Of a stretch of 64,000 bases of DNA, positions 59,695 through 64,000 are shown piece after piece. A program made the translations under genes and the position numbers. Source of the DNA: Clostridium sp. Cult2. GTDB lineage: Bacteria > Bacillota > Clostridia > Tissierellales > Tepidimicrobiaceae. The notes under the pieces were generated by a model. The model saw only the letters and a program-made list of their open reading frames with translations. It did not search any database and was not told the DNA's origin. Location: NCBI RefSeq assembly GCF_021655075.1, contig NZ_PPXX01000034.1, forward strand, positions 1 through 64,000, in the 5' to 3' direction. Position 1 is the stretch's first letter. Every line of letters starts with the position of its first letter.

Positions 59695-59708
59695 TTTACA
59701 ATATTCAC

Positions 59709-59738
59709 AAGAGGACTTTTTATAAGTCCTCTTTTTTC
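59709..59738 (+). terminator. Intrinsic terminator after metK
   Basis: AAGAGGACTT (59709-59718), 5-base loop, AAGTCCTCTT (59724-59733) and six T. Confidence 0.93.
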
Positions 59739-59782
59739 TATTCCATATTTTTAAGGTAATATGAATTCACCTAGGAAAATAT

Positions 59783-59809
59783 GGAAGGCGCCTTCCTCTT
59801 TGGAGGAAG
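59783..59809 (+). promoter_or_regulatory. Two mutually exclusive hairpins over the ribosome binding site of the sigma-like gene
   Basis: CTTCCTC (59792-59798) pairs with GAGGAAG (59803-59809), a perfect 7-bp stem with a TTTG loop that buries the Shine-Dalgarno sequence GGAGG. The same CTTCC can pair instead with GGAAG (59783-59787) within the palindrome GGAAGGCGCCTTCC, freeing the ribosome binding site. The start codon is at 59814. A weakly supported in-frame ATG at 59781 would translate through the whole element. Confidence 0.6.
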
Positions 59810-59813
59810 AAAT

Positions 59814-60368
59814 ATGTATAAGGAAATAGAAGAACTATTATTATTGAGTAAAAAAGGAGATGTAGAAGCTAAAGAAACCCTATTATTAAAGCTTAATCCA
59901 TTAATAATAAGCTCCATTAGAAGGTATTACAATAGAATTGACCAATATGACGATTTAATTCAAGAGGGCTATGAAACAATCCTTCTAGCCATTGAAAATT
60001 ATAATCCAACTAGAGGAGTTAGATTTTTAGGATATACTAAGGCCATGTTAAAATACTTGTATTTAGAGAAACACAGGGAAAAAGAATTTCTTTCATTGAA
60101 CAATACTGTAGATAATGGAGAATTCATAGATTTATTGGAAGGAAATGAAGAAAACCCTATAGATATAATTATAAAAAATGAAGAAACAGAAATATTATTT
60201 GAGAGTTTAAACTGTCTTACAGAAAGGCAAAAACAAGTAGTAGTGGATTACTATATAAATAGACTGTCTATAGATGAAATTGCAGATAGATTAGGAATAT
60301 CCTATAGAACAGTAGTGAATACCAAAACTCAAGGAATAAAAAAATTGAAAAATAGAATAGTAAAATAA
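59814..60368 (+). CDS. Sigma-70 family RNA polymerase sigma factor-like protein
   Basis: A 184-residue short sigma-like protein. Region 2 is about 20-95 (INPLIISSIRRYYNRIDQYDDLIQEGYETILLAIENY, typical sigma region 2 pattern) and region 4 about 130-180 (LTERQKQVVVDYYINRLSIDEIADRLGISYRTVVNTK). Region 3 is missing, as in the ECF and TcdR/UviA-like groups. Clustered with DUF1659, DUF2922 and YvrJ genes, which recalls the B. subtilis yvrI-yvrHa (SigO/RsoA)-yvrJ neighbourhood. Its target promoters are unknown. Translation is probably regulated by the leader hairpins. Confidence 0.82.
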   Translation: MYKEIEELLLLSKKGDVEAKETLLLKLNPLIISSIRRYYNRIDQYDDLIQEGYETILLAIENYNPTRGVRFLGYTKAMLKYLYLEKHREKEFLSLNNTVDNGEFIDLLEGNEENPIDIIIKNEETEILFESLNCLTERQKQVVVDYYINRLSIDEIADRLGISYRTVVNTKTQGIKKLKNRIVK

Positions 60369-60408
60369 TCTTCCTTCTTCCATATAAGGAATAGAAGGAG
60401 GTGAGAAG

Positions 60409-60630
60409 ATGGCAGTAGTAGATATTAAGGAAAATGTAAGATTAAAGCTTGAGCTAGACGGTGGTATGGACGGGAATAGACAGATTATCAAATCTAAAAT
60501 CCTTTCCAAAGTAAAGCCTACAGTAGAAAGTGAAGACCTATATTCAGTAGCTCAGTCCTTAGCAGGCCTTCAAACTTTGCCTTTATACAAAGTTAAAAGG
60601 CTAGAGGAAATCGAATTAAGAGACGAATAA
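60409..60630 (+). CDS. DUF1659 family small protein
   Basis: A 73-residue cytoplasmic protein beginning MAVVDIKENVRLKLELDGG and containing KSKILSKVKPTVESEDLYSVAQSLAGLQTLPL, which match DUF1659. This family almost always lies beside DUF2922, as it does here. Function unknown. GAAGGAGGTGAGAAG precedes ATG, a very strong ribosome binding site suggesting high expression. Confidence 0.85.
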   Translation: MAVVDIKENVRLKLELDGGMDGNRQIIKSKILSKVKPTVESEDLYSVAQSLAGLQTLPLYKVKRLEEIELRDE

Positions 60631-60664
60631 TCTAAACTAAAATAGGCCACAAGGAGGTGATTAA

Positions 60665-60883
60665 ATGGAGAAGTCAAAATTGGAAATGGAGTTTAAAGAT
60701 GAAATGGGGAAAAAATTCACCATATCTATAGATGACCCTAGAGGGGACCTTACAGAATTAGAAGTAAAAGCTGCAATGGATGATATAGTCAATAGGAATA
60801 TATTCTTCACTACATCAGGAGCTATAGTAGCCACAGAAGGTGCCAGATTCATAACCACAACAATAGAAGAACTGACTATATAA
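60665..60883 (+). CDS. DUF2922 family small protein
   Basis: A 72-residue protein with LEMEFKDEMGKKFTISIDDPRGDLTELEVKAAMDDIV and TTSGAIVATEGARFITTTIEEL, the DUF2922 pattern. It resembles the preceding protein in size and layout, and the two may form a complex. Its ribosome binding site AAGGAGGTG is again near-perfect. Function unknown. Confidence 0.85.
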   Translation: MEKSKLEMEFKDEMGKKFTISIDDPRGDLTELEVKAAMDDIVNRNIFFTTSGAIVATEGARFITTTIEELTI

Positions 60884-60908
60884 TAGCTAGTTAGTATCAT
60901 ATCTGATA

Positions 60909-60953
60909 AATAAGTTCTCTTTTTGGTGCCTGGCACCAAAAAGAGAACTTATT
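60909..60953. repeat. Perfect 22-bp palindrome, repeat family 2 (copy c)
   Basis: A 22-base arm (60909-60930, AATAAGTTCTC...GGTGCC) is followed after one base by its exact complement (60932-60953). It lies inside the small-gene cluster, between the DUF2922 gene and the YvrJ gene, so it may terminate or process the transcript rather than end the operon. Confidence 0.85.
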
Positions 60954-60975
60954 GACTATGGAAAGGAGGCTGTTT

Positions 60976-61119
60976 ATGGAAGAGATTTATACCCATATAG
61001 CTAATTTGGGATTTCCCATAGTGATTTCCATCTATCTATTGGTTCGAATAGAGGGGAAGCTAAATATGCTAACTGAAAGTATAAACGATTTATCCAAAGC
61101 CATAGCAGGGATTAAATAA
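60976..61119 (+). CDS. YvrJ family small membrane protein
   Basis: A 47-residue protein starting MEEIYTHIANLGFPIVISIY, with one membrane helix (about 10-24) and a helical charged tail (EGKLNMLTESINDLSKAIAGI). The pattern NLGFPIVISIYLLVRIE-like start and amphipathic tail fits the YvrJ family. The ribosome binding site AAAGGAGGC is strong. It is found with DUF1659/DUF2922 in other clostridia. Function unknown; holin-like or sensor roles have no evidence here. Confidence 0.82.
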   Translation: MEEIYTHIANLGFPIVISIYLLVRIEGKLNMLTESINDLSKAIAGIK

Positions 61120-61120
61120 A

Positions 61121-61180
61121 AAAATCCCCTTCTTGACTTAGAACACATGTTCTGGTAAAATAAGTCAAGGAGGGGATTTT
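61121..61180. promoter_or_regulatory. 20-bp hairpin burying the ribosome binding site of the ComK-like gene
   Basis: AAAATCCCCTTCTTGACTTA (61121-61140) pairs with TAAGTCAAGGAGGGGATTTT (61161-61180), 20 bp with a single G-U in RNA. The stem contains AAGGAGGGG, the ribosome binding site of the next gene, whose ATG begins two bases later; the loop holds the smaller GAACA/TGTTC repeat. On the minus strand it ends in a run of seven T. It may also act as a terminator after the YvrJ gene. Confidence 0.75.
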
Positions 61181-61181
61181 T

Positions 61182-61763
61182 ATGGATATAGAGAAGATAA
61201 TTTCTGAAGAACTAATAGCCTTCCTTCCGGTATATCTGGCTATGAAGGGAAATTGTACATTAATATTAACTGGAGGTGGAGGGAAATATGAAATTGAGAA
61301 AACCGTTAGAACTGTATTAAACCAGATAAGCAAATTCTATTTAATAGATTTAAATGCAACAAAAAAATATTATGGCGATTTATTAAATATAAGAAATTTA
61401 ACCCCAATTCCATTTAATAGAGATAATATTTTTGTACCAATAAAGGTGAGAAAACCTTTATTAAAAAATGATGGGTCCTTTGGGTATGTAAATATTAGTT
61501 ATATCAAAAAGACTTTTTCTGCTAAAGGCAAAACTATAATTCAATTAAATGAAGGTAATAACATAGAATCTTTATCCTCTGTAGATACTGTAAATAAGCA
61601 TATTAAAAATGGGTATATTGTAAAAAAGTTATATAGAGAGAAAGAAAATACAATCAATGTTAATGAAAAGAATTTATACCTAGAATATGACAAACCCGCT
61701 ACCAAAAGAGATATAGCCTTATTGATAAATGAAATACTTAAGATAAAAGAGAATATAAGATAA
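61182..61763 (+). CDS. ComK-like protein (tentative)
   Basis: A 193-residue soluble protein. Its central part (residues about 87-155) reads IFVPIKVRKPLLKNDGSFGYV, then YIKK, GKTIIQLNEGN, and IKNGYIVKKLY. This resembles in order and spacing the ComK core (IFLFPTLS...GWISHVHV...V.FSNGK...N.VYRTAWLR) and the lengths agree (192 in B. subtilis). ComK is the master activator of competence in bacilli; whether this homologue controls DNA uptake is unknown. The ATG lies right behind a 20-bp hairpin occupying its ribosome binding site. The recD2 gene follows after 50 bases. I am unsure of the family. Confidence 0.5.
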   Translation: MDIEKIISEELIAFLPVYLAMKGNCTLILTGGGGKYEIEKTVRTVLNQISKFYLIDLNATKKYYGDLLNIRNLTPIPFNRDNIFVPIKVRKPLLKNDGSFGYVNISYIKKTFSAKGKTIIQLNEGNNIESLSSVDTVNKHIKNGYIVKKLYREKENTINVNEKNLYLEYDKPATKRDIALLINEILKIKENIR

Positions 61764-61813
61764 AACTTATATGATATAATAATATCTAAGATTATGGGTA
61801 GAGGAGAATGGTT

Positions 61814-64000
61814 TTGCTAACATTAGAAGGTATGGTAGAAGATATAATATTTAGAAATGAGATAAATACTTATACAGTCGCAAGTATTGATACTTCAGAT
61901 GGTAAAGCAACTATTGTAGGCTATATTCCATTTATTAACATAGGCGAAACTATAAAAGTAGAAGGAGAATGGATTTATCATCCAACCTATGGAGAACAGT
62001 TAGAAATATCCAATGTGTCCATAGTAGTCCCTTCCACCGTTAATGGTATAGAGAAATATTTATCATCAGGTCTTATTCCCCATATAGGTCCAAAGACTGC
62101 CAAAAGGATAGTAGATAGATTTGGAAAGGATGCTTTAGATATTATTCAATATAATCCGGAAAGGTTAAAGGAGATAGAAGGGATAGGGGATATTAAACTA
62201 AAAAGGATAGTAGAGGCTTTTGAAGAACAAGGAGAAATAAGAGAGATTATGGTGTTTCTCCAGCAATATGGGATAACTGCCAACTATGGAATTAGAATAT
62301 ATAAGCAATATGGCAAAGACACCATAAATATAATCTCTGAAAACCCCTATAAATTGTCGGAGGATATATTTGGAATAGGGTTTAAAACAGCGGATAAGAT
62401 TGCTCAAAATATGGGGATTAGCCTTAATTCCCCTTATAGAATAGAAGGAGGAATTAGATATATTATAAATAGATATGCTGCTAGTGGCCATACCTATGTG
62501 CCAAAAGAAGAATTAATACCTAGTACATCCCAATTATTAGGAGTGGAGGATAATTTAATTGAAGAATCCCTAAGGGATTTGGCTATAAAAGGCATAATAC
62601 ATATATTGAACATTAACGATGAAATGAAAATATATTATACTCCCTTCCATATAGCAGAAAACAATGTAAGCAGGAAGATAGTAGAACTATCCCGGGTAGA
62701 ACTAGAAGGTTTTAATGTGGATATAGATAATATAATTAAGGATATAGAAGGACAAGAAGGTATTAATTTTGCCCAAAAACAGATTGAAGCTATAAAAGAA
62801 TCCATAGAAAATGGAATAATAGTAATTACAGGAGGTCCTGGTACGGGAAAAACCACTATAATCAACGCCATAATTAAAATATATGAAGACCAAGGACTAA
62901 CTGTAAATCTTGCTGCTCCTACAGGGAGGGCAGCCAAGAGGATGACTGAAACTACGGGGATAGAAGCAAAAACCATCCATAGACTATTGGAATACTCCTA
63001 TATGGAAGAAGAAATGGCTTTCGGACTTAACGAAGACAGCCCTTTGGATACGGATTTACTTATTATAGATGAAGCTTCTATGGTAGATATTTTATTGATG
63101 AATAGCCTATTAAAAGCCATAGTTCCAGGGACTAGACTTATTTTAGTAGGAGATGTGGACCAGCTTCCATCAGTGGGAGCAGGCAATGTACTAAAAGATA
63201 TAATAGGTAGTGGTGTAGTAAAAGTAGTAAAACTAGATGAGATATTTCGCCAAGCAGAGGAAAGTTTAATAGTAGTCAATGCCCATAGAATAAATAAAGG
63301 GGAAATGCCTTTATTAAATGTACAGGATAAGGATTTTTATTTTATAAGGGAAAGCAATCCCAACAATATTGTAAATATTGTTTTATCCCTATGCAAAGAA
63401 AGACTTCCCAGCTATTATGGAGTAGATTCCTTTAAGGATATTCAAGTGCTAACCCCTATGAAAAAAGGTGATGTAGGGATAAATGCATTAAATAAATACT
63501 TACAAAATGTATTAAATCCAAAGGCCAATGGAAAGAAAGAAAAAACAATAGGGGATGAATTATTTCGAGTAGGAGATAAGGTAATGCAAATTAAGAACAA
63601 CTATGCTACAGAATGGGAGATAATAAAGGATGGTGTAGTTGAAGAAAAAGGGGAAGGGGTCTTCAATGGAGATTTTGGAATAATCACTGATATAGATGAT
63701 GAAGAAAGGATATTAAAGGTATTACTCGATGATGAAAAGGAAATAGAATATAATTTTAACCAATTAGACGAATTAAAACTATCCTATGCTACTACTGTCC
63801 ATAAAAGTCAAGGAAGTGAGTTCCCAGTAGTGGTAATGCCTATATACTGGGGGCCACCTATGTTATTGACAAGGAATCTATTATATACGGCTATAACTAG
63901 AGCTAAAAACCTAGTGGTATTAGTAGGAGAAGAAAGGTATTTAAGGACTATGATAACCAATAATAGGATTGCCAAAAGGTATTCCAGTCTAGATTATAAA
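61814..64000 (+). CDS. recD2: RecD2-type ATP-dependent helicase, cut by the window end
   Basis: A superfamily 1B 5'-3' DNA helicase, of which 729 codons are visible without a stop; full-length RecD2 is only slightly longer. Features in order: N-terminal MLTLEGMVEDIIFRNE, helix-hairpin-helix repeats (about 75-170, LIPHIGPKTAKRIV, IEGIGDIKLKRIVEAF), Walker A GGPGTGKTT (about 340-348), LLIIDEASMVD (Walker B), LVGDVDQLPSVGAG, and the C-terminal YATTVHKSQGSEFPVVVMP and YTAITRAKNLVVLVG. TTG at 61814 is 7 bases behind AGGAG; the ATG at 61808 is too close. RecD2 helps DNA repair and, in some species, transformation-associated processing. Confidence 0.95.
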   Translation, partial: MLTLEGMVEDIIFRNEINTYTVASIDTSDGKATIVGYIPFINIGETIKVEGEWIYHPTYGEQLEISNVSIVVPSTVNGIEKYLSSGLIPHIGPKTAKRIVDRFGKDALDIIQYNPERLKEIEGIGDIKLKRIVEAFEEQGEIREIMVFLQQYGITANYGIRIYKQYGKDTINIISENPYKLSEDIFGIGFKTADKIAQNMGISLNSPYRIEGGIRYIINRYAASGHTYVPKEELIPSTSQLLGVEDNLIEESLRDLAIKGIIHILNINDEMKIYYTPFHIAENNVSRKIVELSRVELEGFNVDIDNIIKDIEGQEGINFAQKQIEAIKESIENGIIVITGGPGTGKTTIINAIIKIYEDQGLTVNLAAPTGRAAKRMTETTGIEAKTIHRLLEYSYMEEEMAFGLNEDSPLDTDLLIIDEASMVDILLMNSLLKAIVPGTRLILVGDVDQLPSVGAGNVLKDIIGSGVVKVVKLDEIFRQAEESLIVVNAHRINKGEMPLLNVQDKDFYFIRESNPNNIVNIVLSLCKERLPSYYGVDSFKDIQVLTPMKKGDVGINALNKYLQNVLNPKANGKKEKTIGDELFRVGDKVMQIKNNYATEWEIIKDGVVEEKGEGVFNGDFGIITDIDDEERILKVLLDDEKEIEYNFNQLDELKLSYATTVHKSQGSEFPVVVMPIYWGPPMLLTRNLLYTAITRAKNLVVLVGEERYLRTMITNNRIAKRYSSLDYK

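Follow-up and report, generated by a model that had tools for sequence, protein, structure and literature searches.

The hairpin that precedes a ComK-related gene in Clostridium sp. Cult2 very probably encloses a LexA-repressed SOS promoter, and its stem probably terminates, or insulates the gene from, transcription that reads through from the upstream YvrJ gene. The window, by which we mean the whole 64,000-nucleotide stretch of DNA that was analysed, had been described in a first-pass annotation that recognized the hairpin and overlooked three elements within it: a −35 element in the left arm, a LexA box in the loop, and a −10 element abutting the right arm (Table 1).

Table 1 Features of the window in and around the hairpin
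Feature	Position	Strand	Basis
Sigma-70-type sigma factor gene heading the cluster	59814–60368	+	PF04545/PF04542
YvrJ gene, last of the sigma factor-DUF1659-DUF2922-YvrJ cluster	60976–61119	+	PF12841, E 1e-19
Stem, left arm	61120–61140	+	Inverted repeat, covariation
−35 element TTGACT	61133–61138	+	Inside left arm; TTGAC invariant in 18 aligned stem-bearing loci
LexA/SOS box GAACACATGTTC	61141–61152	+	Between −35 and −10; perfect GAAC-N4-GTTC
Extended −10 TG-G-TAAAAT (hexamer 61156–61161)	61153–61161	+	TA..AT invariant in alignment
Stem, right arm	61161–61181	+	Inverted repeat; carries ribosome binding site, ATG directly after
Predicted transcription start	61167–61168	+	Promoter geometry, 6–7 nt past −10
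Ribosome binding site AAGGAGGGG	61167–61175	+	Sequence
ComK-related gene, 193 aa, LytTR-like predicted fold	61182–61763	+	
Extended −10 TGATATAAT, probable separate recD2 promoter	61772–61780	+	TGNTATAAT in 21/21 loci, window included
recD2 helicase gene, runs off the window	61808–64000	+	TIGR01448, 916 bits

A stable, covarying stem adjoins the start codon

The first-pass annotation had reported a 20-bp stem with a single G-U pair before a ComK-like gene. An inverted-repeat search confirmed the stem at 21 bp, with arms that are 95% complementary and separated by 20 nt, and the sequence places the only G-U pair at 61131–61170. The fold of 61101 to 61220 has a predicted energy of −37.4 kcal/mol (z = −5.4), and none of 200 shuffled sequences was equally stable. 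The extent of the stem had to be revised at one end: two bases were said to be left unpaired before the ATG, and the right arm in fact runs to 61181, the base preceding the ATG at 61182.

Conservation of the stem, which the annotation had named as a check, was found as covarying pairing across 18 loci, the stem being missing in some relatives. In this alignment 17 cells had both sides of a pair changed, a number matched by none of 500 shuffles, although these cells are not independent events, one double change being common to three Anaerosalibacter-type sequences. Pairing was found in 88.7% of the stem cells of the 18 loci and in at most 64% when the partner was slid.

The predicted transcription start lies within the right arm

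A promoter scan of 59700 to 62000 ranked TTGACT-17-TAAAAT, with its TG extension, as the best sigma-A-type promoter (10/12 match). Promoter-like matches overall were no more frequent there than in shuffled sequence (11 versus 11.8), and we therefore place weight on the conservation of the elements (Table 1). The start predicted from this promoter falls inside the right arm and would leave a leader of 14 to 15 nt that holds only the ribosome site. The hairpin had been interpreted as locking the mRNA of the gene itself, and a start within or after the loop had been named as evidence that would count against that interpretation; with the −35 element in the left arm, the start is predicted past the loop, and such a lock is not supported.

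A transcript that starts further upstream is predicted to behave differently. In the modeled fold of the long transcript the ribosome site is wholly paired, and the predicted cost of exposing it in the window falls from 19.4 kcal/mol with both arms to 8.6 kcal/mol from the predicted start, which agrees with the earlier proposal that the stem would silence translation of an upstream-started transcript. The corresponding values in relatives were about 20 kcal/mol with both arms and 1.7 to 10.7 kcal/mol from the predicted start, while two loci without a good stem, L077 and L080, showed no comparably large change.

The loop carries a LexA box shared with SOS genes

The GAAC-N4-GTTC form of the LexA box was published for Bacillus subtilis and has been used for Clostridium (PMC4234289). 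The 2.63-Mb genome has nine sites of this form compared with 21 for the reversed control pattern, and because the form is rarer than its control, a single site alone is not significant. The sites include those upstream of recA, uvrB, and the ComK-like gene, where GAACACATGTTC is the sole exact copy of its sequence in the genome. Near-identical boxes occur at dinB, where the layout is the same, with the −35 element on one side of the box and the −10 element on the other, and at lexA with its divergent LysM-type neighbor (uvrB, dinB, and the LysM-type gene were named from their sequences). Both LexA and RecA are encoded in the genome. A second LexA-family protein (L011, contig C93:2458-3036) also scores above the model cut-off, and no box of this type was found within its 2.9-kb locus.

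A family search found the ComK-like gene in 18 of 20 genomes. All but two (L087 and L096) of the 28 Tissierellales-type loci (the window and L070 to L096), 26 in all, retain the LexA box, stem-less loci included. The 18 stem-bearing sequences all share its GAAC and GTTC halves and vary in the central four bases; the column counts of the Tissierellales-type set come from 26 rows chosen for having a box and are descriptive, not a test. Among the exceptions, the box-less ComK-like gene of L087 precedes comEC by about 1.2 kb, and a reverse-strand gene separates the two. One family genome also has a second, more distant ComK-like copy (L069), which contains an in-frame TGA and has no LexA box.

The association extends beyond these loci. 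Of 398 genomes sampled from the phylum, 148 contain relatives by a protein-profile search. The upstream DNA of 89 more distant genes of the ComK-like type was read, and 51 of them carry the box, made up of 22/29 in one set and 29/60 in another. For the 60-gene set, to which the shuffle test was confined, shuffled sequences yielded 1.3 ± 1.0 boxes on average and never more than 4, against the 29 observed, and one box turned up in a control of 300 nt of coding DNA taken from these loci. Of the 29 boxes, 22 sit in a recognizable promoter. Outside the window's own family, the box was present in 20 of 40 sampled families, mostly in an all-or-none manner within a family, and a recognized box was absent from the other half. 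At the few distant loci that were inspected the neighboring genes differ, indicating that the box travels with the ComK-like gene. No LexA box was found at seven Bacilli ComK genes, in 21 recD2 upstream regions, or upstream of comEC in 15 related genomes (in one of which just 80 nt were read).

Since the box is kept in relatives that lack the hairpin, LexA is the most likely switch for the ComK-like gene. The conditional expression that the first-pass annotation had suggested is supported. The stem is a later addition to the LexA-boxed promoter.

The predicted SOS promoter probably serves mainly the ComK-related gene

The gene order metK-sigma factor-DUF1659-DUF2922-YvrJ-comK-like-recD2-comFC is kept in many relatives, and on this contig comFC comes after recD2. 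The sigma factor-DUF1659-DUF2922-YvrJ cluster (59814–61119) is repeatedly linked to the ComK-like gene; at L100 a similar sigma factor gene lies beside a ComK-like gene. Between DUF2922 and YvrJ, a perfect 22-bp inverted repeat surrounds TTTTTGGTGCCTGGCACCAAAAA (60909–60953); it matches 12 places in the genome with at most three mismatches, the reversed control none, and looks like a dispersed repeat element.

We considered whether recD2 and comFC are expressed mainly on the SOS transcript. This was weakened by the conserved, separate extended −10 element before recD2, and no LexA box lies within 250 bp upstream of recD2. Because recD2 has this element of its own, the ComK-like gene is probably the main gene that the SOS promoter drives.

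The product is a distant relative of ComK

The window protein matched neither the ComK model PF06338 nor any Pfam family above cut-off and had no NCBIfam match of its own. Its relationship to ComK emerged from its relatives: 15 of 29 gave ComK-model matches with E ≤ 1, the best of them 2e-8, a profile–profile comparison with Bacilli ComK (hhalign) gave E 4.2e-7 and a probability of 93 over 130 columns, and the window protein shares 35% identity with a protein of the same order that scores above the ComK cut-off. The ComK-like identity given in the first-pass annotation is thus supported as a distant one. These comparisons make it a distant relative of ComK, and we describe it as ComK-related and do not file it as ComK. 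Curated family models miss this widespread regulator in this genome.

The AlphaFold model of the protein has a pLDDT of 83. A search with VIA-align returned LytTR DNA-binding domains or LytTR-containing proteins in the top six rows, with modest Z scores of 6.6 to 7.5 over 88 to 103 residues (the next was 3.5), and Foldseek found no match in the PDB at E ≤ 0.001.

Exact matches to the ComK-type box AAAA-N5-TTTT were sought from 60901 to 61800; none lies upstream of the gene and one lies inside it, at 61506, and nothing that we found supports the bistable expression proposed earlier. All but one of the 20 family genomes have comEC, and this genome encodes T2SS/pilus-type ATPases. At comEC in 15 related genomes there was one AAAA-N5-TTTT match, at −149 in a single genome. 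The −35 of the divergent gene appears to account for a conserved CAAC-type element found upstream of comEC.

A probable terminator and insulator around a predicted LexA-repressed promoter

We infer a mechanism in which LexA binding, induction by damage, the start site, termination, the block to translation, and the role of the ComK-like protein are all predicted steps. LexA bound between the −35 and −10 elements would hold the gene off; after DNA damage, RecA would trigger LexA self-cleavage, and RNA polymerase would start inside the right arm, giving a short mRNA that lacks the left arm and has a free ribosome site. Transcripts of the YvrJ operon carry both arms, so that they should end at the stem and its U-run, and in those that run on the ribosome site would be buried. 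With readthrough either terminated or untranslatable, leaky upstream transcription could not make the regulator, and LexA alone would decide.

The distribution of the stem is consistent with this proposal. A strong stem (duplex −20.6 kcal/mol or better) was found in 15 of 15 loci, the window among them, in which YvrJ ends within about 70 bp. Three loci, L077, L088, and L089, are stem-less, and each has a separate terminator-like hairpin in the interval from YvrJ to the promoter; with chance expectations of 0.4, 0.0, and 0.8, respectively, that of L088 is clear and that of L089 is near chance. The stem is retained in L083 and L084 despite YvrJ ending 338 and 122 bp away, and no other terminator was found there (scanner for L083, inverted repeats for both), while in L080, with YvrJ 272 bp away, the stem is weak and we could find no terminator. 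The base of the stem is CCCC/GGGG, followed by a short U-run, AUUUUUAU. The loop is long, and the stem was not listed by the terminator scanner, which takes loops of 3 to 8; given the short U-run and long loop, termination may be partial. The suggestion that the stem may double as the YvrJ terminator is supported, and a terminator and readthrough insulator around a LexA-repressed promoter is the best reading of the stem, the correlation being imperfect.

A narrower version of this explanation, not exclusive with it, would make the stem merely the intrinsic terminator of YvrJ, overlapping a LexA promoter, with burial of the ribosome site having no selected role. The three stem-less relatives just described fit such a terminator, as do the terminal U-run and the terminator-like covariation, but the right arm coincides with the ribosome site in 18 of 18 aligned loci, although a short space would also give that; we regard this version as plausible, somewhat short of an even chance. 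Far less probable is an RNA switch, in which the main transcript spans both arms and the stem acts as a conditional translational lock. Full pairing of the ribosome site in the long transcript would suit it, but the −35 element lies within the left arm, the start is predicted after the loop, and several relatives keep the promoter and box yet have no stem; we rejected it because conservation of the box and promoter reaches beyond that of the stem. It is equally improbable that the box is bound by a repressor other than canonical LexA. The second LexA-family protein on contig C93, above cut-off and without such a box nearby, is one candidate; against it, the box matches those of recA, uvrB, lexA, and dinB as well as the published form (PMC4234289).

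Relation to known systems

Present before ComK-related genes in 20 of the 40 families sampled outside the window's own, the LexA box offers a direct, testable wire from the SOS response to a competence-type regulator, and a widespread ComK-related regulator gains a predicted inducer, DNA damage. We suggest, tentatively and with rather less than even confidence, that in many Clostridia-type families LexA directly controls a ComK-related master regulator, such that damage would induce competence or a related program alongside SOS repair. To our knowledge natural transformation has been little studied in these groups, and a search of the open-access literature gave no report that LexA controls comK in Clostridia or that ComK is a LexA target. 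The compact overlap of terminator and promoter is a secondary point, mechanistically neat. In the transposase genes of IS10 and IS50 and in gene e of phage T4, a promoter lies within an inverted repeat, and only readthrough transcripts carry both arms, hiding the ribosome site; the window differs in that the gene is a chromosomal regulator, a LexA box occupies the loop, and an arm holds the −35 element.

The Gram-positive LexA/SOS regulon of B. subtilis and Clostridioides difficile uses the same box, placed over the promoter, but the target here is a ComK-related regulator, and the word competence does not occur in the paper on C. difficile LexA (PMC4234289). Compared with Bacillus ComK (PF06338), the window protein shows distant homology; the seven Bacilli genes lack the LexA box, and the autoregulation box of Bacillus ComK is not found upstream of the window gene. 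DNA damage has been linked to competence genes in Streptococcus pneumoniae and Helicobacter pylori, and, as two papers describe it (PMC8394987, PMC2912397), damage-induced competence is best documented where SOS is lacking, as in the pneumococcus, or where competence is induced instead of repair genes, as in H. pylori. In contrast to both, LexA itself is the predicted switch here, for a regulator whose role in competence is putative.
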